This document shows positions 1 to 17,101 of a stretch of 38,870 bases of DNA, in pieces. Each line of letters starts with the position of its first letter. Within the stretch, counting starts at the first letter, position 1. The notes below the pieces were generated by a model that was not told the DNA's origin, ran no database searches, and saw only the letters and a program-made list of their open reading frames with translations. Both the position numbers and the translations under genes were made by a program. Source of the stretch: a bacterium (GTDB lineage Bacteria; B130-G9); assembly GCA_035527515.1 (NCBI GenBank), contig DATLAJ010000107.1, forward strand, positions 1 through 38,870, written 5' to 3'.

Positions 1-1130
1 GTTCGTTAGCCTGCGCGAACTCTAACGGAGCGCCTCCTTCTTCTCGCTATGGTCGTGGGAACACGCTCAACGCATCGCTTAACATGCTCACCTATCACGG
101 GTGGGCAAGAGCTGAGCTTGCGAAGCTCGGGAACTAGAGGGGCGCCCCTAACGCCCCGAACACCTCGGAGCCAGAGGCGACCAGTCCTTCCTCCTCCTCA
201 TCTCTAGCGGAGCTCGAGGTGGTGAGTAGGCTTTGGCTCAGCCCATACGCAGTGAACAGCGTCTGTGCATGTCCCCTTGACCTCACACTTAGCGCTCTAA
301 TGCGGGGGAGCGCTCAGCTCCCCATCATCCTTCTCCTCCTTCTGAGGGGCGTAACCGCACCCCCCCTTGACGGCCATGCCCCCTGACCTGCTTGACCTGT
401 AGTCTGCTGACACTACTTCAGGAGCAGAGCGTCCGCGGAGCTTACAGGAGCAGTCATTGGGGACCGAGAATCCCTATCGCGGCCCAATGAGAGATACCAC
501 TTCAGATTCTCACGAGGCCATATCAGGAGCATGGGGTATTCATTTGCGTGAGAAATTTTTGCGGGTGAAATTCTACCTCTCTCACGGCGGCCTACTTGCT
601 TGCCACTAGAGCGAAACTACGGGGATCGCTATTTTTCTGGTTGTGTCGGTAAGGGCGTTTGATGGTGTTCAGGAAGGGATTTGTGGCGTTTCTCGGCTGG
701 TTTTCACTGTTTTGGGGAGATGCTCGGCGAACATCATTGATGTTCTAGCTCGAGCATACTATCCGGGGATGTGCTCGTCAACGTAGTGTAACCGTCTGTG
801 ACACCCCCCCCTCGCAAGGAAGTGGAGCGAAGCGGAACGTGGAAGCGCTAGCGCCTCACTCGGCTCACCTACAACCTTGAAGGAGCGTGGGAGAAGTCTT
901 ATCAATCAACAGTCAATCGAGTAATCCACCCCACGGGGAAGAGGCCGTCTTCAACTCGTCCTACTGACGGCGTATTTCTCGCTTCTGGGCACTATCTGAC
1001 TGCGATGCTGACGAGCCACGCGAGGGCCGCGCTTTCTGTGAGGACGAGGAGCCATGCAAGAATGTTAGTGATGCGATCGATGGTTGTGTTCATTTCACGT
1101 TCTTCTCTCTTAGGTTTTTTTGCTCGGTTT
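1..1130. other. Gene-free stretch of the mobile element
   Basis: No convincing coding frame is present over about 1.1 kb on either strand. The sequence has C-runs near 360 and 804 and purine/pyrimidine-biased tracts. It has small hairpins, for example a 12-bp palindrome at 138-149 (AGGGGCGCCCCT). It lies 3' of the minus-strand primase. It could hold replication or packaging signals, a decayed gene or a non-coding RNA, but I see nothing that decides between them. Confidence 0.5.
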
Positions 1131-1235
1131 GGACAGGGTTGGACACAGTTATTGCCCTTTTTCGGAAAGTCCCCTCATGAAGAAGAATCCTGGAAGGTTT
1201 CCGAAAAACACTGTTAACCCTGTCCAACCCTGTCC
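1131..1235. repeat. Nested inverted repeat with GGACAGGGTT iterons; candidate origin
   Basis: The outer arms are a perfect 15-bp inverted repeat (1131-1145, GGACAGGGTTGGACA, against 1221-1235). The inner arms are a perfect 11-bp inverted repeat (1158-1168 against 1198-1208). The right side holds two tandem copies of the 10-mer AACCCTGTCC (1216-1225 and 1226-1235). The left side holds GGACAGGGTT followed by the relative GGACACAGTT. It starts six bases past the stop of the Prim-Pol/helicase gene. Satellite islands of the SaPI type have origins built of short iterons in two sets around a melting region, close to the rep gene. A transcription terminator for the primase gene is the main alternative. 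Confidence 0.55.
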
Positions 1236-1240
1236 CAACT

Positions 1241-3382
1241 TCATTTGAGTCGTAGCCCAAAATAGACTGTTTGGCGGCTGTTAGAGGCACTTGAGTGTGG
1301 GCGCTGTTTGTCAAAGTCGTATCGGTTGAGTTGTATGCCAAAAGCAGTGGAAGTTAGGAGATTCGCGTCCATTTCGTGGGCAAATTCGTCGTAATTGGCA
1401 TACAATTTCTCAGCAGTTTCTTTGTAGCCGGCGCCGCGCTCACAATGTTCTCTGAGCCAGACCTCGAGCGGGTTGGAGTCGAGCTCGAACTGGCGGGTGA
1501 TGTCCTTAACTGACTTCGGGATGGCGAGGCCATTTGTGAGCAGCTTGACAGCACCTCGGACGGCCCAGGCTAGGATGCCGGCGCTTTCAGCTCGATAGAG
1601 GGTGTTCCAATACTTCTCAACTCGACCCTGTTCTGGGACCTGGTTCAGAAAGTTGATCCGCAGGATGCGCCGCCAGGTTGCCCAGCTGGTATCAGCAATT
1701 CTGGGCTCGTGGTTACTACAGACCACGAAAGTTGCGACAGGCGTGAACTCAAAGTTCTCTCGATATATCTGCCGGGCGCTGACCGTGCTTCCATCGCAAA
1801 GACCGTTAAGCAGTCCTGTATTGAGCGCTCTTGCGCCGAATTCGTTGGCATCAACAAACCGTTTGCCCTGCAGGTCTGCGACTTCATAAACTTCGCGGTC
1901 ATGGTGATATTGAAGGGTCTTCTTGTCGATGTGTTTGGCATAACCTGAAGCCCCGCTCCCCAAGATGAGTTTCATGGCCTCAACAATTGTGGTTTTGCCG
2001 TTGGCTCCCTTGCCGAGGAAGAGCCACCAGCATTGCTGATCAGCGTTGCCGACTAGCATATAACCACATACTCGTTGGATATGTTCAATGAGCGCCTCGT
2101 TGCCGCTGAAGCAGAATGCAAGGTGCTTGAGCCAGAGCGTGCACTGGGCGGTATGGTCGTATGTTGTTGGTGCGATCTGCGTCATCTTAAAGGCTGGATC
2201 GTGCTTGCGAAGCTGGCCGGTGCGTAGATCGACAATGCCGTTCTGGACATTCAGCAGTTCGGGGTGTTGGTCGAACTCATTCTCCTCAATCAGGATGTCG
2301 GGCAGGACCGTTGCGAGTTCCAAACTGTTGGCGATATTCGAGCGTTTTTCGGAGGAGAACGCCCACTTGACCAGTGCCTTTTGCCTGTCAGGATCACTCT
2401 CTTGGGCGGAAGCAAGAAGTTGCGTTGGTCCGACCCGCTGCACAAGAGCAAACGCCTCGGCATGAGCATCACGCCGCCAGCGTTTGCCATCCCATACTAG
2501 CCAGGCGGACTGTTTAGTCCAGCGGACGAGGCCTCTGGTGAGGAGCTGAAACCGATACGCGTTCCCAAGCTCAGTAGTATGCAGTGCGTTAAGCTCTTGA
2601 GCGGTCTCAGCAGATAGCCTGAACGCCTTCGGGCGATGTGCCTCTGGGACTGCCGGCGCTGGCGCGTAATTTGCGGCACTGTTCGCAATCCCCTGCACTT
2701 CGGCCTCAGGCAACGGCGGAGAGCACTTGCTCTGGTTCTCTGCTTGCAGCGCTGCCAGAATGGCCTCTGGCGCCAAGTTCTTGTGTCGCAATAAACTCGC
2801 CAACCTGAACAGCGTATCGTTCCGCTGCCCCTCATGAATCGTCTCAGGCGACTTGACTGGACACTTGGCCTTGCCCTTGTCGATGAGCGACATGATCTTC
2901 TGCCAGGTTGGCATCGGGAGTGTTGCCATCTCGATGTCGGTCGGGCCGAGCCCAGGCACCCACTGATAGTCCCCCTTCTGGCCGTCGAGGTGAACATGCG
3001 ACCCAGGGCCGAGAACGTAAGCGGAATGCCCGGCCTTGACGTCGATCGAGATGTCGCCGGCTACAACCTTCTGGCTTTTCAGGGGGATACCGGCGGGCGG
3101 TAGATAAAGCCTGTTGAGATGGCCTCTCCATGTCCGAATCGTTAATGTGGGCGGTAGCTCTAGCGTCTTCAAGAACGTCTCGGCTGACGGGGTGTCAGGG
3201 TCGAGGCAGAGACAGCCGTCCAAGCGAAAGGCGATGTTGCACCTATCAGCCCATTGTTCGAGGACGCTGTGGAGCTCAGCGGGGTCCCGAGCTTGCCACT
3301 TATCAAGCAGCGGTGGCGCCTTCCGTCCGGCGAGAATGGGCATCGAGACCCAGTGCAGATCGATGGGGGACGCGTGGCTCAC
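1241..3382 (-). CDS. Prim-Pol / D5-family primase-helicase, replication protein of the element
   Basis: This 713-residue protein probably primes and unwinds the element's own DNA. The N-terminal ~160 residues look like a bifunctional primase-polymerase domain, with an acidic LCLDPD motif (D61 and D63) and a possible catalytic-region histidine near H88. Residues ~185-240 resemble a primase C-terminal helical region. Residues ~370-700 form a D5-like superfamily 3 helicase with the Walker A loop GKGANGKTT at 457-465 and a VDANEFG segment after it. The GTG start is chosen because it forms a GTGA overlap with the stop of the upstream HTH gene, so the two are probably translationally coupled. Fused Prim-Pol/D5 proteins are typical of plasmids, phages and satellites. 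Helicase assignment is firm; the primase active site is less certain. Confidence 0.88.
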   Translation of the reverse strand: MSHASPIDLHWVSMPILAGRKAPPLLDKWQARDPAELHSVLEQWADRCNIAFRLDGCLCLDPDTPSAETFLKTLELPPTLTIRTWRGHLNRLYLPPAGIPLKSQKVVAGDISIDVKAGHSAYVLGPGSHVHLDGQKGDYQWVPGLGPTDIEMATLPMPTWQKIMSLIDKGKAKCPVKSPETIHEGQRNDTLFRLASLLRHKNLAPEAILAALQAENQSKCSPPLPEAEVQGIANSAANYAPAPAVPEAHRPKAFRLSAETAQELNALHTTELGNAYRFQLLTRGLVRWTKQSAWLVWDGKRWRRDAHAEAFALVQRVGPTQLLASAQESDPDRQKALVKWAFSSEKRSNIANSLELATVLPDILIEENEFDQHPELLNVQNGIVDLRTGQLRKHDPAFKMTQIAPTTYDHTAQCTLWLKHLAFCFSGNEALIEHIQRVCGYMLVGNADQQCWWLFLGKGANGKTTIVEAMKLILGSGASGYAKHIDKKTLQYHHDREVYEVADLQGKRFVDANEFGARALNTGLLNGLCDGSTVSARQIYRENFEFTPVATFVVCSNHEPRIADTSWATWRRILRINFLNQVPEQGRVEKYWNTLYRAESAGILAWAVRGAVKLLTNGLAIPKSVKDITRQFELDSNPLEVWLREHCERGAGYKETAEKLYANYDEFAHEMDANLLTSTAFGIQLNRYDFDKQRPHSSASNSRQTVYFGLRLK

Positions 3383-3618
3383 CGGGGGCTCAGGTCAATC
3401 GGCTTGACGCGGGCTCGGCCTAGCAATCGGGCGGTGCGTTCGTTGGCGGGCTGGTGGCCAGAAGCGAGATAGGCGTCAAGGTCCGCCTGCTCAATCCTGA
3501 TGGTGCGCGTGCCGACTCTCACATGCGCGAGAAGGCCGGCCTGAATCTGCAAATAGACGAGCTGGGGCGAAACGCCTAAGAGCTTCGCGGCTTGCTTAAC
3601 GGTGAGAAGATCATGCAT
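3379..3618 (-). CDS. AlpA/excisionase-like helix-turn-helix protein
   Basis: This 79-residue protein has a MerR/AlpA-type winged HTH near its N-terminus, reading LTVKQAAKLLGVSPQLVY, followed by the RIEQADLDAYL helix usual in excisionase-family DNA-binding domains. The ATG at 3618 is chosen because GAGGAG sits at the right distance before it; an in-frame start further upstream at 3675 has no such site. Its stop overlaps the primase start by four bases. In satellites AlpA-like proteins switch on the replication genes and may help excision. Here it is co-transcribed with the primase and divergent from the integrase side, which fits a master-regulator or Xis role. The exact role is inferred. Confidence 0.8.
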   Translation of the reverse strand: MHDLLTVKQAAKLLGVSPQLVYLQIQAGLLAHVRVGTRTIRIEQADLDAYLASGHQPANERTARLLGRARVKPIDLSPR

Positions 3619-3640
3619 AATAAACTCCTCATTAAAATGG

Positions 3641-3669
3641 TTGACGTATCGGTCTATCTTGTGTAGGCT
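3641..3669 (+). promoter_or_regulatory. Candidate sigma-70 promoter for the unknown gene and integrase
   Basis: TTGACG at 3641-3646 is followed after 17 bases by TAGGCT at 3664-3669. The intergenic gap to the divergent HTH gene is only about 100 bp, so it must also hold that gene's promoter and any operator. An interrupted repeat, CACAT then ATGTG, lies just downstream and could be an operator. The -10 is poor. Confidence 0.35.
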
Positions 3670-3718
3670 GTCCACATAGGGTTTGATGTGAAGTTTAGGA
3701 CATTTTGAGGATAGGCGA

Positions 3719-4771
3719 TTGGGAGTAAGGCGGAATAGCCGTAAAGCGGCGGGAGGCTTCGTCGAAGCGATTTGTTTTCGTTTTGGAGGGCTACTAGATG
3801 GGCGTAAAGCAAAGGAATCTGTGGTCGAATTGATTGCTAAGCGTCTTGGAGAAGGTCGTCGTGGGCCGAAGCCGTTTGCTCAAGGAACGCGGTTGTTGAT
3901 GGGGTTTGATGATTTTCTGGTCGAGTTGTTGCAGGAGATAGCGAGCAAGCTGGACGCCAGTTTCCCCCTGAAGGTGGTGGTGTGGACGCGGTTTAGTTAT
4001 CGGGGCGAGACGGGCGGTGTGCAAGTGCTGCGATGGCGGCTGTTTGACGAGCGTCCGAAGCCGTCCATGAGTAAGAGGGTGCTATTTCGGGTGAGTCGTC
4101 AGCGGAGGATTCGCTCTTCTGGGGATTGGGTTCAGCTAGGCGATGGTCGTTTGGGCGAGGGTTCGATTCCTAAGTTTGAGTATGACTATGACGAGGACTG
4201 GCGTTGTTCTCTCTTTCCGGTCGTGGGGGTGCTTCCCAAAGAAGGCGGTGGGATACACGACGAGGACGATTGGGAGTATTGGCGAGCGGGTTACAAGCGA
4301 TCTCTTGTAGGAATGGGACGTAGCCCGACGGATAGGGATGTTGAGGACATGATTGCGAGTCAGTTGCTTGAGCACGGTGGAATTCCTTACCATCTGTCGA
4401 GTGTTTTGGCCGAGATGCATAAGGTCGCACTGCGGGCGAGGCGGCGAGAGAATATGAGTTCGAGTCAAGAGTATGACGATGAGCACACTGGGATTGGCGG
4501 GGCGTTGGCCTGGACAGAGCAGTTGGTTGAAGGCGAGAAAGAGCCTGACAGGGCACCGCTTTCGGTGGCGGATGTTTATCACCCTCGGACGCCAGCAGAG
4601 TGTCGAGCTGTGACCATTGCGTTGCGGGCTGAGGCTCTTGGATTTCATCTTTATGGTGGGCGCGGGCGGTCTATCTCCGGATACATTAGGCGCGTGTATG
4701 GCCGGCGGGCTGCCGCTGTCTTGGGCGCATTGTCGCACTGCAGTCGGCGTCATCGTAAGTTGGGTCGGTGA
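3719..4771 (+). CDS. Unknown element-encoded protein preceding the integrase
   Basis: I do not recognise this 350-residue protein. It is rich in Arg at both ends and acidic in the middle, around residues 145-200, with DYDEDW and DEDDWEYW clusters. It has no signal peptide or membrane segment. The C-terminal ~50 residues (GGRGRSISGYIRRVYGRR and onward) look like a basic helical segment that could bind nucleic acid. The TTG at 3719 is chosen because GAGG lies eight bases upstream and no ATG occurs until well inside the frame. Its stop shares a base with the integrase ATG (TGATG), so the two genes are one translational unit. Coupling to int suggests a role in integration control or element maintenance. 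Confidence 0.65.
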   Translation: MGVRRNSRKAAGGFVEAICFRFGGLLDGRKAKESVVELIAKRLGEGRRGPKPFAQGTRLLMGFDDFLVELLQEIASKLDASFPLKVVVWTRFSYRGETGGVQVLRWRLFDERPKPSMSKRVLFRVSRQRRIRSSGDWVQLGDGRLGEGSIPKFEYDYDEDWRCSLFPVVGVLPKEGGGIHDEDDWEYWRAGYKRSLVGMGRSPTDRDVEDMIASQLLEHGGIPYHLSSVLAEMHKVALRARRRENMSSSQEYDDEHTGIGGALAWTEQLVEGEKEPDRAPLSVADVYHPRTPAECRAVTIALRAEALGFHLYGGRGRSISGYIRRVYGRRAAAVLGALSHCSRRHRKLGR

Positions 4772-5835
4772 TGGCGATAATCAAGCGAACTGGTTCTGAC
4801 ATCTTCTATGTCGATTTCCGGGACCAGGGTGGTTGTCGGCATCGAATCTCAACGGGCACTAGGAGCCGGCGGGTTGCTCTTCAAATCGAGGCGAAGCTCA
4901 AGTCGGACGCAGTGTCGGGCAAGTTCTTTGGGCCGTCCCGTGGGCAGCTGAGGCTTGCGACAGTCCTTCAACGATATGTTGATTGGCAGAAGACTATGGG
5001 GAAGCGCTGGGGTCGGTCTGACCTGGCTATGCGTAATATCCTGCGGGTCCTGAACGGTAGTATCTCGGCTGGTAGGCTCACGGTGATAGATGTTGATCGG
5101 TATAAGCGGGAGCGATTGCAGAGCGTCAAGCCTGGGACTCTTCAGCGTGAATTGACTGTGCTGATCGCAGCGTTGAATCGAGCTGTCGAACGAGGCGAGT
5201 TGAGCGTCAACCCACTTGCGGGTCGAGTAAAACAGATGATGGTTGCTCCTCGTAACCGCGTCTTAGGGGACAGTGAGGTCAATCGTTTGCTTGCCGAGGC
5301 GCAGAACGGGCCGAACTATTTACTGCCGGCACTCGCACTGATGGTTGGGGCGGGTTGTCGTCGAGGTGAAGCTTTGGGGTTGTTATGGCAGGATATTGAT
5401 CTTGATTCGGGGTCAATCATTATCCACGCAGAGAAGACCAAGAAAAGTCGGGTGGTGCCGTTGGCAGGCTGGCTTCAGGACATACTCAAAGCGGTGCCTC
5501 GGGTTGGGGCGACTGTGATTGCTACAAACGAAGGGCAGGCGATCGAAAGCATCAAGCGGAGCTTTCACTCTTGTTGCGAACGTGCGCGGATCGAACACGT
5601 AGTTCTTCACGATCTGCGGCGGACTTTCGGGACACGAATGGCGCGAGCGGGCGCGAGTCCGTGGATCATTCAAAGCTTGCTCGGACATCAGTCATTGCGG
5701 ACGACCCAAATGTATGTTTCAATCTCCGATTCGGCGATGCGCCGTGCTGTTTTTGAGGCATGTCCAGCGCCGGACGGCTTAGGGCTTGGTCAAGACGATG
5801 AGAGTAACAGGATGCATATAAGTGGGCACAAATAA
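4771..5835 (+). CDS. int: Tyrosine site-specific integrase
   Basis: This 354-residue tyrosine recombinase catalyses integration and excision at the tRNA-Gly site. The N-terminal SAM-like/core-binding domain covers roughly residues 60-150. The catalytic domain shows the Arg of GCRRGEAL (R198), the beta-strand Lys near 222, HDLRR giving H280 and R283, LLGH with H306, and the nucleophile in TQMYV (Y315). All key residues are present, so it should be active. ATG 4771 overlaps the stop of the preceding gene; a GTG three bases earlier is an alternative. It ends 60 bp before the tRNA-Gly 3' fragment, the usual place for int beside its att site. Confidence 0.95.
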   Translation: MAIIKRTGSDIFYVDFRDQGGCRHRISTGTRSRRVALQIEAKLKSDAVSGKFFGPSRGQLRLATVLQRYVDWQKTMGKRWGRSDLAMRNILRVLNGSISAGRLTVIDVDRYKRERLQSVKPGTLQRELTVLIAALNRAVERGELSVNPLAGRVKQMMVAPRNRVLGDSEVNRLLAEAQNGPNYLLPALALMVGAGCRRGEALGLLWQDIDLDSGSIIIHAEKTKKSRVVPLAGWLQDILKAVPRVGATVIATNEGQAIESIKRSFHSCCERARIEHVVLHDLRRTFGTRMARAGASPWIIQSLLGHQSLRTTQMYVSISDSAMRRAVFEACPAPDGLGLGQDDESNRMHISGHK

Positions 5836-5894
5836 GGCACAGTGCCGTTTCTGGAAGTCGTTTGATGGGCTAAATAGCCTATAATTGAACACTG

Positions 5895-5949
5895 GAGCAT
5901 CGCCTTGCCAAGGCGAGGGTCGCGGGTTCAAATCCCGTTTCCCGCTCCA
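5895..5949 (+). other. attR: 3' fragment of tRNA-Gly(GCC)
   Basis: The sequence from GAGCATCGCC through the TTGCCAA anticodon loop (anticodon GCC), the T-arm GCGGGTTCAAATCCCGT and the terminal TTCCCGCTCCA matches the 3' three quarters of a tRNA-Gly. The acceptor 5' strand and most of the D-arm are missing and are replaced by element sequence. It is not a functional tRNA. Tyrosine integrases commonly duplicate the 3' part of a tRNA gene like this, leaving an intact copy at the far end of the element. The left limit of identity is approximate. Confidence 0.88.
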
Positions 5950-9571: not shown

Positions 9572-11890
9572 TCAGGACTTGCCGGATGCTATCTCGCTTG
9601 GCGGCAGCTCTTGGGCCGCGATCCCATAAATCTCGAACACCGCCTCGTCAATCGTTCGCTCCAGGTCGCTGACTGCTTGCGAGTCCGCAAGCCTGGCCTG
9701 GCGAGCCTCCTTGACTCGAGCCACAATCTCGTCATGCAGGCTCTTGAATCGTTCCTGATCCGACATCGGGGCAACCTTTATCGGGAGCCTGACAAGCGTG
9801 TGAGCGTAGTATTCATATAAGCGCCCCATCTTCTTGGCGATGCGCCGAAAGTAGAAGCCCAGCAGGCTCGAATTGAGCAGACAACAGAGATATTCCGGCA
9901 GAACCGCGTCTCCGGGATTTATGCAATAGACGTCCGCGCTACAGTAATAGCGGCCATAATCGACCGCGAACCTGCTCTCTTCAGCCTTGAACGGGACCAA
10001 TATTTTGGGGGTGGCGGACACGAACTGCTCTGGTCTTCTTGGCCGGATGAGCCTCCACCAGGGTCTATTCATCGGACCAACCTCGTAGCGGCTCTCGAGA
10101 ATGTCCCGGAACCTCGCAAGGTGCCGAGTCAGGTTCGGCATGCTCACCGGGTCTGGTTTCTCCACGATGTAGAGGACATATTGCCCAGAATCCCGCAAAG
10201 CCCATCGATCAAGTTGAGAGTTTTTTACCCACGGCTTGAGAAGTGCCAGTTCCTGCGGCAGTAGTTTCAAGGCGGCAACCTCATCCTTGTAAAGCACGAA
10301 TATGCCCTCCTGAGCCCGCATGGACGCCTGCTGGCCGTCTCCTCGCACCCTGTCCGCCCCAGTGATGAGGCCTGGACTCACCAACGCCACGTCGCCCAGA
10401 ACCGAATCTGAAGCGGCCTCAAGTTTGCGCATCAGCTCCCGCTCTGCCGGAGGCGCTAACACCCAGCGATCGGCGAGCAGCTGCTGCGGCACGTCGAAGC
10501 TCATCCACGCCGATGCGGCGCTCGGCAGAAGGCTCTCTAGACTGACGCGGCCGTCGATCTTGGCCACGCTCGGAGCACGAAAGACCCTGAGCGTGTGCGA
10601 CGGGTTTGGTTTCTCTTTTCTTAGGACCAGCACGCACACCTGAATGCCTCGCCCACCGAACACGGAAACAGTGTTGAAATCGAGCAGATAGACCAGCTCG
10701 GTTTTTCGGGCGAGGAAGCCGCGCAGTGGCGCCGCCTTGTCCGCCCCAAGCCAGTAACGAGGGACCACGTATCCCAAGACGCCTCCCGTGCGGAGGCACT
10801 CGACGCCTCTTTCGATGAAGTAGTAGAAGACGTCTGCCTTCCCATCAAAGACCGAGTAGCGGGCCAAGACCCGCTGCCGATAAGTTGGCGAGTGATGATG
10901 GAATCCAAGATAGGGAGGATTGCCGACTATGACGTCGAACTTCGTGCTCGATGCAGGATTGAGCGGAAACGTCGAGCCATTCGGTTGGTGTGACGGGGAT
11001 GGTCTATTGAAAGGAAGTCCTGATCTTTTGTCTAGGAAGTCGCGCCGATGCAAACTGGCGGCAGTAGTATCGAATTTTCCGTGCAGGCGAAAGCGGAGAA
11101 AGCCCAAACTCAGCTCTGCGAGGGCGAGGGCGGTCGGATCGATGTCGAGCCCGAACAGGTTATCCCCCACGTCAGCTTTGTTCGGGGTCCCTGTCGCATC
11201 GGGTAGCTGCTCAGCCTCAGGCTGCGATTCATACAGAATACGAGCCGCTGCCAGAAGAAAAGCGCCTGAGCCACATGCCGGGTCGAGTATCCTGAGTTTG
11301 GGTGCGGCTTTGGACTGCCTCTTGCGCTCGGAGTGAGCCTTTAGACAAAGCCGGACCAAGAGCTCTGAGAGCCAACCAGGCGTGTAATACTGCCCTTTGT
11401 AGCGTCGAGCACTTCTGCCCTCATCGCACGACTCATACACCCAGACCAAGATGTCATCAGCCAACCAGAATCTGCGCGGCAGCGACTCGGAAAGCAGCCT
11501 GGCCGCGGAATTGATGTCCGCAAGGCGGGCTCCTTTGTCGCTAGAGAGGACGACATCGAGGGCATTGTGAAGGGCTTGGGGCCAGCTGGACGCATCGATG
11601 TTTGCCGGAGGCCACTTTTCCTCCTTAGTCCGCGCAAGCCAGGCCACTGCCGATGCGGCCGCAATTACTACAACGGCGGCCCTGTTCATGGGATGAGGGC
11701 CAGACATAAGAGATGCCGTTCGCCGGCGCGCCTTACGAAGTGCCCTCCTAAGGTCAGCTAGCTGTTCTCGACGAACGATGTTCATGCCCGTGCCTGACAT
11801 CTCCCCGGACATAGCGTTCTCTTGCCCTTCCCAAGCAATCATAGTTGCCTCATCTGACATGTCAGACTCGCTGTATAAAGCGGAAGCCAC
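9572..11890 (-). CDS. Eco57I-like N6-adenine DNA methylase with specificity domain, no nuclease seen
   Basis: This 772-residue protein carries SAM-binding motif I (DPACGSG, 203-209), an acidic motif II region (GLDIDP, ~247-252) and catalytic motif IV (NPPY, 324-327), in the gamma order of N6-adenine methylases. GQYYTPGWL at ~166-174 is the conserved block before motif I in type I/IIG enzymes. Residues ~480-740 resemble a TaqI-like target recognition domain. The N-terminal 160 residues show no PD-(D/E)XK nuclease, unlike full type IIG enzymes, and no separate nuclease gene is beside it. Its start is uncertain: GTG 11890 or ATG 11860. It may be a solitary regulatory methylase or a remnant of a restriction system. 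At 772 residues it is much shorter than BREX PglX. Confidence 0.85.
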   Translation of the reverse strand: MASALYSESDMSDEATMIAWEGQENAMSGEMSGTGMNIVRREQLADLRRALRKARRRTASLMSGPHPMNRAAVVVIAAASAVAWLARTKEEKWPPANIDASSWPQALHNALDVVLSSDKGARLADINSAARLLSESLPRRFWLADDILVWVYESCDEGRSARRYKGQYYTPGWLSELLVRLCLKAHSERKRQSKAAPKLRILDPACGSGAFLLAAARILYESQPEAEQLPDATGTPNKADVGDNLFGLDIDPTALALAELSLGFLRFRLHGKFDTTAASLHRRDFLDKRSGLPFNRPSPSHQPNGSTFPLNPASSTKFDVIVGNPPYLGFHHHSPTYRQRVLARYSVFDGKADVFYYFIERGVECLRTGGVLGYVVPRYWLGADKAAPLRGFLARKTELVYLLDFNTVSVFGGRGIQVCVLVLRKEKPNPSHTLRVFRAPSVAKIDGRVSLESLLPSAASAWMSFDVPQQLLADRWVLAPPAERELMRKLEAASDSVLGDVALVSPGLITGADRVRGDGQQASMRAQEGIFVLYKDEVAALKLLPQELALLKPWVKNSQLDRWALRDSGQYVLYIVEKPDPVSMPNLTRHLARFRDILESRYEVGPMNRPWWRLIRPRRPEQFVSATPKILVPFKAEESRFAVDYGRYYCSADVYCINPGDAVLPEYLCCLLNSSLLGFYFRRIAKKMGRLYEYYAHTLVRLPIKVAPMSDQERFKSLHDEIVARVKEARQARLADSQAVSDLERTIDEAVFEIYGIAAQELPPSEIASGKS

Positions 11891-15009: not shown

Positions 15010-16335
15010 TCAATGGTGCTTGCGCACGAACACTCGTATCGGGCTGCCATCGAAGCCGAACTCCTCGCGGAGGCGCCCCTCGATGTAGCGCAGGTAGGCG
15101 TCGTTAACATCGTCCGGGCGGTTCGTGAAGATGGCGAACGTGGGGGGACGGACCGACGCCTGCGTCGTGTAGTAGAATCTGACCGGCTTTCTGCGCTTGA
15201 TCATCGGATGCTTGCTGAAAACCTCGTCCTGCATGAACCTGTTCAGGATGCCCGTGCTTATACGTCTCTGGCACTCGTCGTTCACGGCGTCGATCAGCGG
15301 GAACATCGAAAGCAGCCGCTGCCTCGTCACCGCCGAAACGAAGACAATCGGTGCGAATATGGCGAACGACGTTTCGTCTTGGATGCGCTTGATAAAGACA
15401 CCCATTGTCCTGTCGTTCTTCTCAATCAGGTCCCATTTGTTGACCACCAGAATCAGCCCCTTGCCCTGCTCGACCACTACCGACGCGATCTTAGCATCCT
15501 GACTCGTTGCAGGCTGGGTCGCATCCAGCACGAGTAGCGTTACGTCGGACCGGCGGATGCTGCGCTCGGCGACCATGATGCTCTCCTTCTCCAAGAGTTC
15601 TGACACCTTGCTCCGACGTCTTATGCCGGCGGTGTCAATGAGCATGTAGTCTTGCCCCTTGACGCGGACTTTGCTGTCGGTGGCATCGCGCGTCGTGCCC
15701 GCCGTCTCGTGCACGAGCACGCGCTCCTCGCCCAAAAGAGAGTTGACTATCGACGATTTCCCCACGTTCGGACGGCCCACGATCGCGCAGAACGTCGCCT
15801 CGTCAGGCGCGTTCGCCGCCTCAGTTACGGGTGAGGCGATGATGTTGGCCAGGGTCTCTTTCAGGTCGCCGATGCCGAGTTTGTGCTCGGCCGAGATAGC
15901 TAGCACCCGCTCAAAACCCAGCGAATAGAACTCGGCCGCGAGCGATTCCTGGCTTTCCATATCGATCTTGTTGACTGCAACTATCACCGAATCGGTCATC
16001 CGACGCAGGAACGCAGCGGTCTCCTCGTCCTGGGGCAAAAGGCCCGAGCGGCCATCGACCATGAAGATTATCGCGTCGGATTCGGCGACTGCGAACTCAA
16101 CCTGACGTTCGACTGCCCTCGTGATTGAATCAGGTGCGCCTCGCAAAAAACCGCCCGTGTCAACGAGCATGACTGACGTATCATTGACGTCGGCCACCTC
16201 GTAATTGCGATCTCGCGTCACGCCCGGAGTGCCATGCACGATCGCCTTCCGGCGGCCAACAAGCCGATTGAACAGCGTGGATTTGCCCACGTTCGGCCGC
16301 CCCACAATGCTAATGGTCGGTAGTCGTCTTCGCAT
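15010..16335 (-). CDS. der: Ribosome biogenesis GTPase Der (EngA)
   Basis: This 441-residue protein carries two tandem GTPase domains, the hallmark of Der: GRPNVGKST at 12-20 and GRPNVGKSS at 187-195. Each has its own DTGG/DTAG switch and NKxD motif (NKID at 122-125, NKWD in the second). The C-terminal KH-like domain contains the RRKPVRFYYTTQ segment. It acts in late assembly of the 50S subunit. The start is ATG 16335, whose codon overlaps the first bases of the 108-bp direct repeat flanking hicBA, so insertion upstream may have replaced its original promoter. Confidence 0.97.
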   Translation of the reverse strand: MRRRLPTISIVGRPNVGKSTLFNRLVGRRKAIVHGTPGVTRDRNYEVADVNDTSVMLVDTGGFLRGAPDSITRAVERQVEFAVAESDAIIFMVDGRSGLLPQDEETAAFLRRMTDSVIVAVNKIDMESQESLAAEFYSLGFERVLAISAEHKLGIGDLKETLANIIASPVTEAANAPDEATFCAIVGRPNVGKSSIVNSLLGEERVLVHETAGTTRDATDSKVRVKGQDYMLIDTAGIRRRSKVSELLEKESIMVAERSIRRSDVTLLVLDATQPATSQDAKIASVVVEQGKGLILVVNKWDLIEKNDRTMGVFIKRIQDETSFAIFAPIVFVSAVTRQRLLSMFPLIDAVNDECQRRISTGILNRFMQDEVFSKHPMIKRRKPVRFYYTTQASVRPPTFAIFTNRPDDVNDAYLRYIEGRLREEFGFDGSPIRVFVRKHH

Positions 16336-16441
16336 CTTCTCTCAGTTATCAGTTGGCAGTTATCAGTTGTAAGTTAGCCCCAATCCGCAATCCACACCTG
16401 ATACTATGCCCGCAATTCGCGCATCTTCCTATTGAATATCA
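16334..16441 (+). repeat. 108-bp direct repeat, left copy flanking hicBA
   Basis: This copy matches 16994-17101 at 105 of 108 positions by eye; the mismatches are at 16340, 16341 and 16352. The copies are offset by exactly 660 bases and bracket the hicB-hicA pair. Inside each, CAGTTATCA units repeat (CAGTTATCAGTTGGCAGTTA). Confidence 0.93.
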
Positions 16442-16993: not shown

Positions 16994-17101
16994 ATCTTCC
17001 GTCAGTTATCACTTGGCAGTTATCAGTTGTAAGTTAGCCCCAATCCGCAATCCACACCTGATACTATGCCCGCAATTCGCGCATCTTCCTATTGAATATC
17101 A
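16994..17101 (+). repeat. 108-bp direct repeat, right copy flanking hicBA
   Basis: Second copy of the repeat at 16334-16441. It begins one base after the hicA stop, so the duplicated unit plus hicBA looks like a 660-bp tandem-duplication or recombination unit. Homologous recombination between copies would delete the toxin-antitoxin pair cleanly. Confidence 0.93.

Follow-up and report, generated by a model that had tools for sequence, protein, structure and literature searches.

A ~26-kb island in a tRNA-Gly gene of a candidate-phylum bacterium, with a predicted PICI-type core for integration and replication

What kind of mobile DNA ends in a tRNA fragment at the start of this contig, and how might it move? 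The window, that is, the whole stretch of DNA analysed here, is the entire contig C107 (38,870 bp), belonging to a metagenome bin of 183 contigs and 3.47 Mb (G000, 96% complete and with 3.6% contamination). The initial annotation of this DNA had guessed an uncultivated lineage, and rightly so, the nearest named relative being Ca. Coatesbacteria. The comparison set consisted of one genome of the same genus (G001, Ca. Coatesbacteria B130_G9) and two of the same family (G002 among them), the next relatives sharing only the domain. The window opens with one end of a mobile DNA island of ~26 kb that sits in a tRNA-Gly(GCC) gene, and we describe this island as a member of a new family of tRNA islands with predicted replication of the type found in phage-inducible chromosomal islands (PICIs), in a candidate phylum host. 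The features of this end are the following.

1-620, no strand: non-coding hairpin-rich module common to other islands, 1-197 being its most conserved part
1127-1239, no strand: putative origin of replication just 3' of the primase gene, with four ~10-bp iterons (GGTTGGACAG-like)
1241-3382, minus strand: primase-helicase (713 aa), a Prim-Pol-like primase fused to a D5/SF3-type helicase, predicted replication initiator
3379-3675, minus strand: AlpA/excisionase-like HTH_17 protein (98 aa; PF12728 E=6e-13; PHROG excisionase/regulator phrog_66 E=7e-9)
3676-3718, no strand: intergenic gap separating the divergent AlpA-primase and X-int operons, drawn from ORF boundaries
3719-4771, plus strand: protein X (350 aa; TTG start uncertain; 4-bp overlap with int)
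4768-5835, plus strand: int, tyrosine recombinase (355 aa; Phage_integrase PF00589 E=2e-27; PHROG integrase E=5e-56)
5822-5844, plus strand: arm-type repeat GTGGGCACAAATAAGGCACAGTG, recurring twice beside the other island end on contig C65 (L006:17719 and L006:17842)
5895-5949, plus strand: attR, a displaced 3' end of tRNA-Gly(GCC), 55 bp long and matched base for base by the 3' part of the intact gene on C65
5981-6056, plus strand: tRNA-Pro(GGG), chromosomal right flank, found next to an intact tRNA-Gly in two island-free relatives

The integrase, AlpA-like and primase genes of the window are all intact, and their layout is far beyond chance. The catalytic HxLR and LGHxS...Y motifs of the integrase could be recognised in the alignment. 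The primase-helicase matched D5_N (PF08706, E=1e-26), PriCT_1 (PF08708, E=5e-14) and PF19263, its best PHROG match was a primase (E=4e-99) and the nearest solved chain was the DNA primase 7ola. Its Prim-Pol-like N-terminus is 33% identical to the Pfam Prim-Pol on contig C63; searched against genome_contigs, the window primase gave no relative, and its one match in IMG/VR (32%) was in a phage with tail genes. Two proposals of the initial annotation were borne out here. The integrase gene, said to end beside a tRNA-Gly 3' fragment, ends 60 bp before it. The AlpA-like gene, divergent from int, had been described as coupled to a Prim-Pol/helicase, and this coupling is confirmed by the 4 bp that it shares with the start of the primase-helicase gene, together with the Pfam and PHROG matches and the Prim-Pol-like N-terminus. 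The region between the divergent operons (3676-3718) probably controls both of them. The same annotation had overlooked the X reading frame overlapping int, the iteron array and the repeated module at ~1-620. Protein X belongs to no Pfam or PHROG family, was present in this genome only among 98 genomes, and its predicted fold has a pLDDT of 38, too low to be of use. A protein of 230-390 aa occupies the same position in other islands, with no demonstrable homology to X.

The intact tRNA-Gly(GCC) gene is located at C65:30325-30399 and carries the identical 55 bp; it is the second copy that the initial annotation had expected of a simple integration. In G001 the site is uninterrupted, with tRNA-Gly and tRNA-Pro ~30 bp apart, and in G003 tRNA-Gly is also beside tRNA-Pro. 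The two flanks align to G001 at ~85% identity, that of C65 until tRNA-Gly ends and that of the window starting with the 55-bp core, so that both meet on one G001 contig and overlap by exactly 55 bp. When the C65 flank, a single core and the window flank were stitched together, the alignment ran across the junction for 962 columns. The uninterrupted site of a genome of the same genus thus fixes the att core and both ends of the island, which has a specific att site (55-bp core, attL and attR, empty site) with int at one end. Two copies of GTGGGCACAAATAGGGCACA are found at the C65 end of the island and the same motif, with one change, at the int end in the window, the behaviour expected of integrase arm sites, which these repeats probably are. 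To the right, the window contains a Type II-like N6-adenine methyltransferase/specificity gene between tRNA-Pro and tRNA-Asn (9572-11890), which is chromosomal and outside the island since its counterpart in G001 aligns at 80%. There is also a 108-bp direct repeat with 97% identity between its copies (16334-16441 and 16994-17101).

The left part of the island, missing from the window, could be recovered as contig C145 (17.7 kb) plus the end of C65, 20 kb in all, giving an island of ~26.05 kb. C65 extends 2.4 kb beyond the tRNA, with a ParB-like gene and then an SNF2 helicase gene of which only the C-terminal half is present, the N-terminal half being at the end of C145; an 8-bp overlap joins them in frame (497 aa). 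Over 486 residues the joined helicase shares 51% identity with an intact one of 494 aa in plasmid p2-AD3 of Roseomonas mucosa, where the same neighbours are found together (ParB, small nuclease-like protein, helicase, ParB, HATPase and radical SAM). By sequence, then, the C145-C65 join is secured by the split gene and the conserved operon order. At its other end C145 starts in a repeat whose next part is base 1 of the window, and the end of C176 shares 67 exact bases with C145 and also holds the first 197 bases of the window at 93%. We infer that window and C145 are joined with ~42 bp missing between them, across a repeat present on four contigs. Read from the left, the island would contain the intact tRNA-Gly/attL, a cargo arranged as ParB/SNF2/nuclease/ParB//HATPase/radical SAM, a kinase and subtilase segment, the ArdC remnant, the non-coding module, the iteron origin, the primase-helicase, AlpA // X, int and attR.

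Outward from the module, the cargo begins with small zinc proteins followed by an ArdC-like gene, which in C145 is frameshifted and has its C-terminal part ~9.5 kb away (L022:1862-11858). Between both parts there are a response regulator, a 1,589-aa kinase and a subtilase, and beyond them the radical SAM-to-ParB operon. The 9.5-kb segment splitting the gene seems to have been inserted later, or to stem from a rearrangement within the island, and the broken gene may indicate that this copy is partly decayed. The operon itself is a six-gene set (L022:12420-17680 and L006:18079-20000) made up of radical SAM, HATPase, ParB-like, small PD-(D/E)XK-like, SNF2 and ParB-like genes, conserved on R. mucosa p2-AD3 and partly on pNL1, and may represent an undescribed defence or DNA-modification system. 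With PADLOC its helicase matched the ZorD/DpdE models and the ParB proteins did so only weakly; no named system of PADLOC spans the operon, for which a defence role seems plausible.

By Pfam and PHROG comparison of the main ORFs, no capsid, tail, portal, terminase, relaxase or type IV secretion genes were found in C145, the end of C65 or the window. The main ORFs of the recovered left part thus show none of the capsid, tail or conjugation genes that, according to the initial annotation, would make the element a prophage or an integrative and conjugative element (ICE). Nor was there support for the packaging or interference genes that had been placed there: nothing like TerS or capsid-size genes appeared in the recovered 20 kb, and the same searches of the main ORFs gave no TerS, capsid-size, interference or cos/pac match, a result that divergent small proteins could escape. 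The recovered island thus has none of the structural, terminase or portal genes of a prophage, and for an ICE there was no relaxase Pfam match in its main ORFs and no type IV secretion marker (PF03135, 0/4 genomes). Having no capsid or tail genes of its own is a feature of PICIs (criteria in PMC6092414).

Fillol-Salom et al. (PMC6092414) describe the PICI origin as an AT-rich region with a set of iterons on either side, placed just 3' of rep, and a similar layout, judged from sequence, is found 3' of the primase here. The iterons of the window are at 1127 and 1137 (forward) and at 1220 and 1230 (reverse), and the stretch between them has a mild AT rise (57% vs 47-48%). Four or more matches within 120 bp were obtained in 1/200 shuffles, for a motif that was chosen after inspection. 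The island on C167 offers a textbook case, free of such post-hoc choice, with two groups of the 9-bp ATGACGCTA, 11 exact copies in all, on either side of a 72% AT tract directly 3' of the primase (L044:17143-17459) and none elsewhere in 17.7 kb. No comparable iteron array was found 3' of the primases of C63, C89 and C59 of G002. As far as layout can tell, this putative origin is the strongest support for the comparison with PICIs.

At least five islands with the X-int // AlpA-primase architecture are present at tRNAs in G000 (window, C63, C89, C167 and C17). In G002, contig C59 has the same architecture and C134 has X-int beside a primase-like gene. The tRNA 3' fragments near int in G000 are Gly (window), Arg (C63 and C89), Ser (C167) and Val (C17), the types other than Gly and Val being read by eye. 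The integrases of the other islands are 27-30% identical to that of the window (an alignment too diverse for use in the contig scan) and their primases are of different types, so the sister islands are not recent copies of one element. The int of C63 is broken by a stop and three other islands of the genome have an open int. A second island, in tRNA-Val(TAC), could be delimited between C42 (left end, L013:6343-19802) and C17 (right end, L043), with an identical 56-bp core and an empty site in G001. On its C42 side it carries NsnA- and PsyrA-like genes, an AbiE pair, a type IIG RM enzyme and an HKD-SNF2 helicase. Contig C176, not assigned to an island, has a DSR2-type SIR2 defence gene (L015:1006-4926, PADLOC E=1e-236) with a diverged copy of the module upstream and a near-identical one downstream.

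This module is shared by islands that have little else in common. Positions 1-197 of the window are 93-96% identical to the ends of C42, C89 and C176, the copies of C42 and C176 share 394 bp at 97%, and window 407-626 has a 73-77% likeness to the start of C176. Frameshifting indels between copies break every reading frame. The C176 copy folds with z -3.8 / -4.4 on the two strands vs shuffles, the good folding of both strands being what inverted repeats would give. In the C42 island the module is inverted relative to the att sites. Rfam detected only tRNAs, and no known large ncRNA, in the window start and sister loci, and there was no match to the module in IMG/VR (two exact patterns) or INPHARED (blastn). 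Islands with integrases only ~30% identical have in common a stretch of 200-394 bp at 93-97% identity, for which a cis signal kept by selection and exchange would be the most economical account. More tentatively, and this we regard as a possibility with the odds against it, the module might act in cis as the packaging site or oriT through which one common helper transfers the islands, and have been swapped between unrelated islands of the same cell. If so, the helper signal would explain the 93-97% identity, and a helper of this candidate phylum could be found by its own copy of the module.

Taken together, the best explanation of the whole is a PICI-like, helper-dependent island of ~26 kb in tRNA-Gly(GCC), to which we assign a probability of about 0.5. 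Judging from the protein families, Int with AlpA as excisionase would excise and integrate the island at the tRNA, and both integrated and empty sites were observed. The layout suggests that the primase-helicase replicates the island from the iterons on its 3' side. Spread would most likely be like that of a PICI, with a helper phage packaging the island by means of a cis signal, the shared module being the best candidate for it, and the cargo of this island and its sisters would, from the gene families represented, mainly protect the host against other phages. PICI-like spread is favoured because the island itself brings no recognised genes for transfer or particles. Its size counts against it, since ~26 kb exceeds that usual for PICIs, though ~9.5 kb correspond to the segment splitting the ArdC-like gene. 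As for the helper, the portal PF04860 (control positive) and VirB4 PF03135 (controls worked) are absent from all four genomes. Terminase matches in PHROGs fall in a 655-659-aa gene of all four genomes that looks like a housekeeping P-loop protein, e.g. UvrB. With no portal, no VirB4 and no credible terminase, there is no sign of a prophage or of a conjugative helper; the favoured reading is an unseen, perhaps virulent, helper phage.

The island could instead be an integrative mobilizable element without a relaxase of its own, excised by Int/AlpA and moved by a conjugative helper using the module as oriT, an explanation that is unlikely and still deserves serious attention. Elements carrying only an oriT have been described (PMC11389934), and the module has inverted repeats and is common to unrelated islands. 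An ArdC-like gene is found decayed in C145 and intact in an island of G002 (ArdcN below the cut-off, PHROG anti-restriction E=1e-6). ArdC-like antirestriction genes are common on conjugative elements, and the remnant keeps conjugative mobilization in play. However, the recovered island has no relaxase, VirB4 is found in 0/4 genomes, and the iteron origin with primase has a PICI-type layout. The same layout, together with AlpA, suits PICIs better than a self-contained, tycheposon-like island that would travel in vesicles or particles or by transformation, with no dedicated helper interaction; we consider such an island slightly less probable than the mobilizable element, even if the tRNA border, tyrosine recombinase and varied cargo match the description of tycheposons (PMC10872708) and no packaging or transfer genes were found.

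Two further readings would take mobility, or the island itself, away. A decayed relic that no longer moves is suggested by the frameshifted ArdC-like gene split by 9.5 kb and by the stop in the int of C63, but it is improbable, given the intact int, AlpA and primase genes of the window, the open int of three other islands and the att cores, identical at 55/55 positions in the tRNA-Gly island and 56/56 in the tRNA-Val island. Identical cores and open int genes make the islands of this architecture look recent. An artefact of assembly or binning, with C145 not lying between C65 and the window, is very improbable. The junction repeat is on four contigs, only C145 is on its other side, and the bin has the contamination given above. 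Against this, C145 and C65 are fixed by the split helicase and operon order, C65 and the window by the empty site, and the other end of C145 is in the same repeat family.

Support is good for the island itself, for both of its ends and for an integration and replication core of PICI type. Islands at tRNAs with such a core exist in a candidate phylum, with two empty sites as proof. Several of them are found per genome, at least one being rich in anti-phage defence, in a phylum where no prophage was seen, and the shared module provides a concrete lead to whatever moves them. The initial annotation had suggested that the locus extends the range of satellites; what holds of this is the PICI-type int/AlpA/primase layout, now with iterons, while the term satellite stays conditional as no packaging or interference gene was found.

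Among known systems, integrative mobilizable elements (including those with only an oriT) have in common with the island an integrase with excisionase, the ArdC-like remnant and a hairpin-rich non-coding segment, but they differ in that the island has no relaxase and its genome no VirB4. P4-like satellites are defined by psu, delta, sid, alpA, epsilon, alpha and integrase (PMC8628076), a gene set that the window island does not possess. They resemble it in int, an AlpA-like regulator, a primase-helicase and defence cargo, whereas Psu, delta, Sid and epsilon are absent from the scanned ORFs, the primase is of the D5_N/PriCT_1 type with a Prim-Pol-like N-terminus and not Pox_D5, and the regulator is HTH_17. 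Tycheposons, compared by description only, are likewise tRNA-anchored, with a tyrosine recombinase, variable cargo and a large size range, features common to most tRNA islands, while the AlpA gene and iteron origin of our island point to PICIs. From the latter it differs in having no recognised TerS, capsid-morphogenesis or interference gene, in its ~26 kb, in having no known helper, in the extra X gene coupled to int, in the divergent X-int / AlpA-primase operons and in its candidate phylum host. Membership of the PICIs is not claimed, as the searches gave neither packaging or interference genes nor a helper. With PICIs such as the SaPIs and EcCICFT073 the island nevertheless shares a specific att site, int, an AlpA-type regulator, the lack of structural genes, accessory cargo and, directly 3' of its primase-rep gene, a more AT-rich stretch with a set of iterons on each side.
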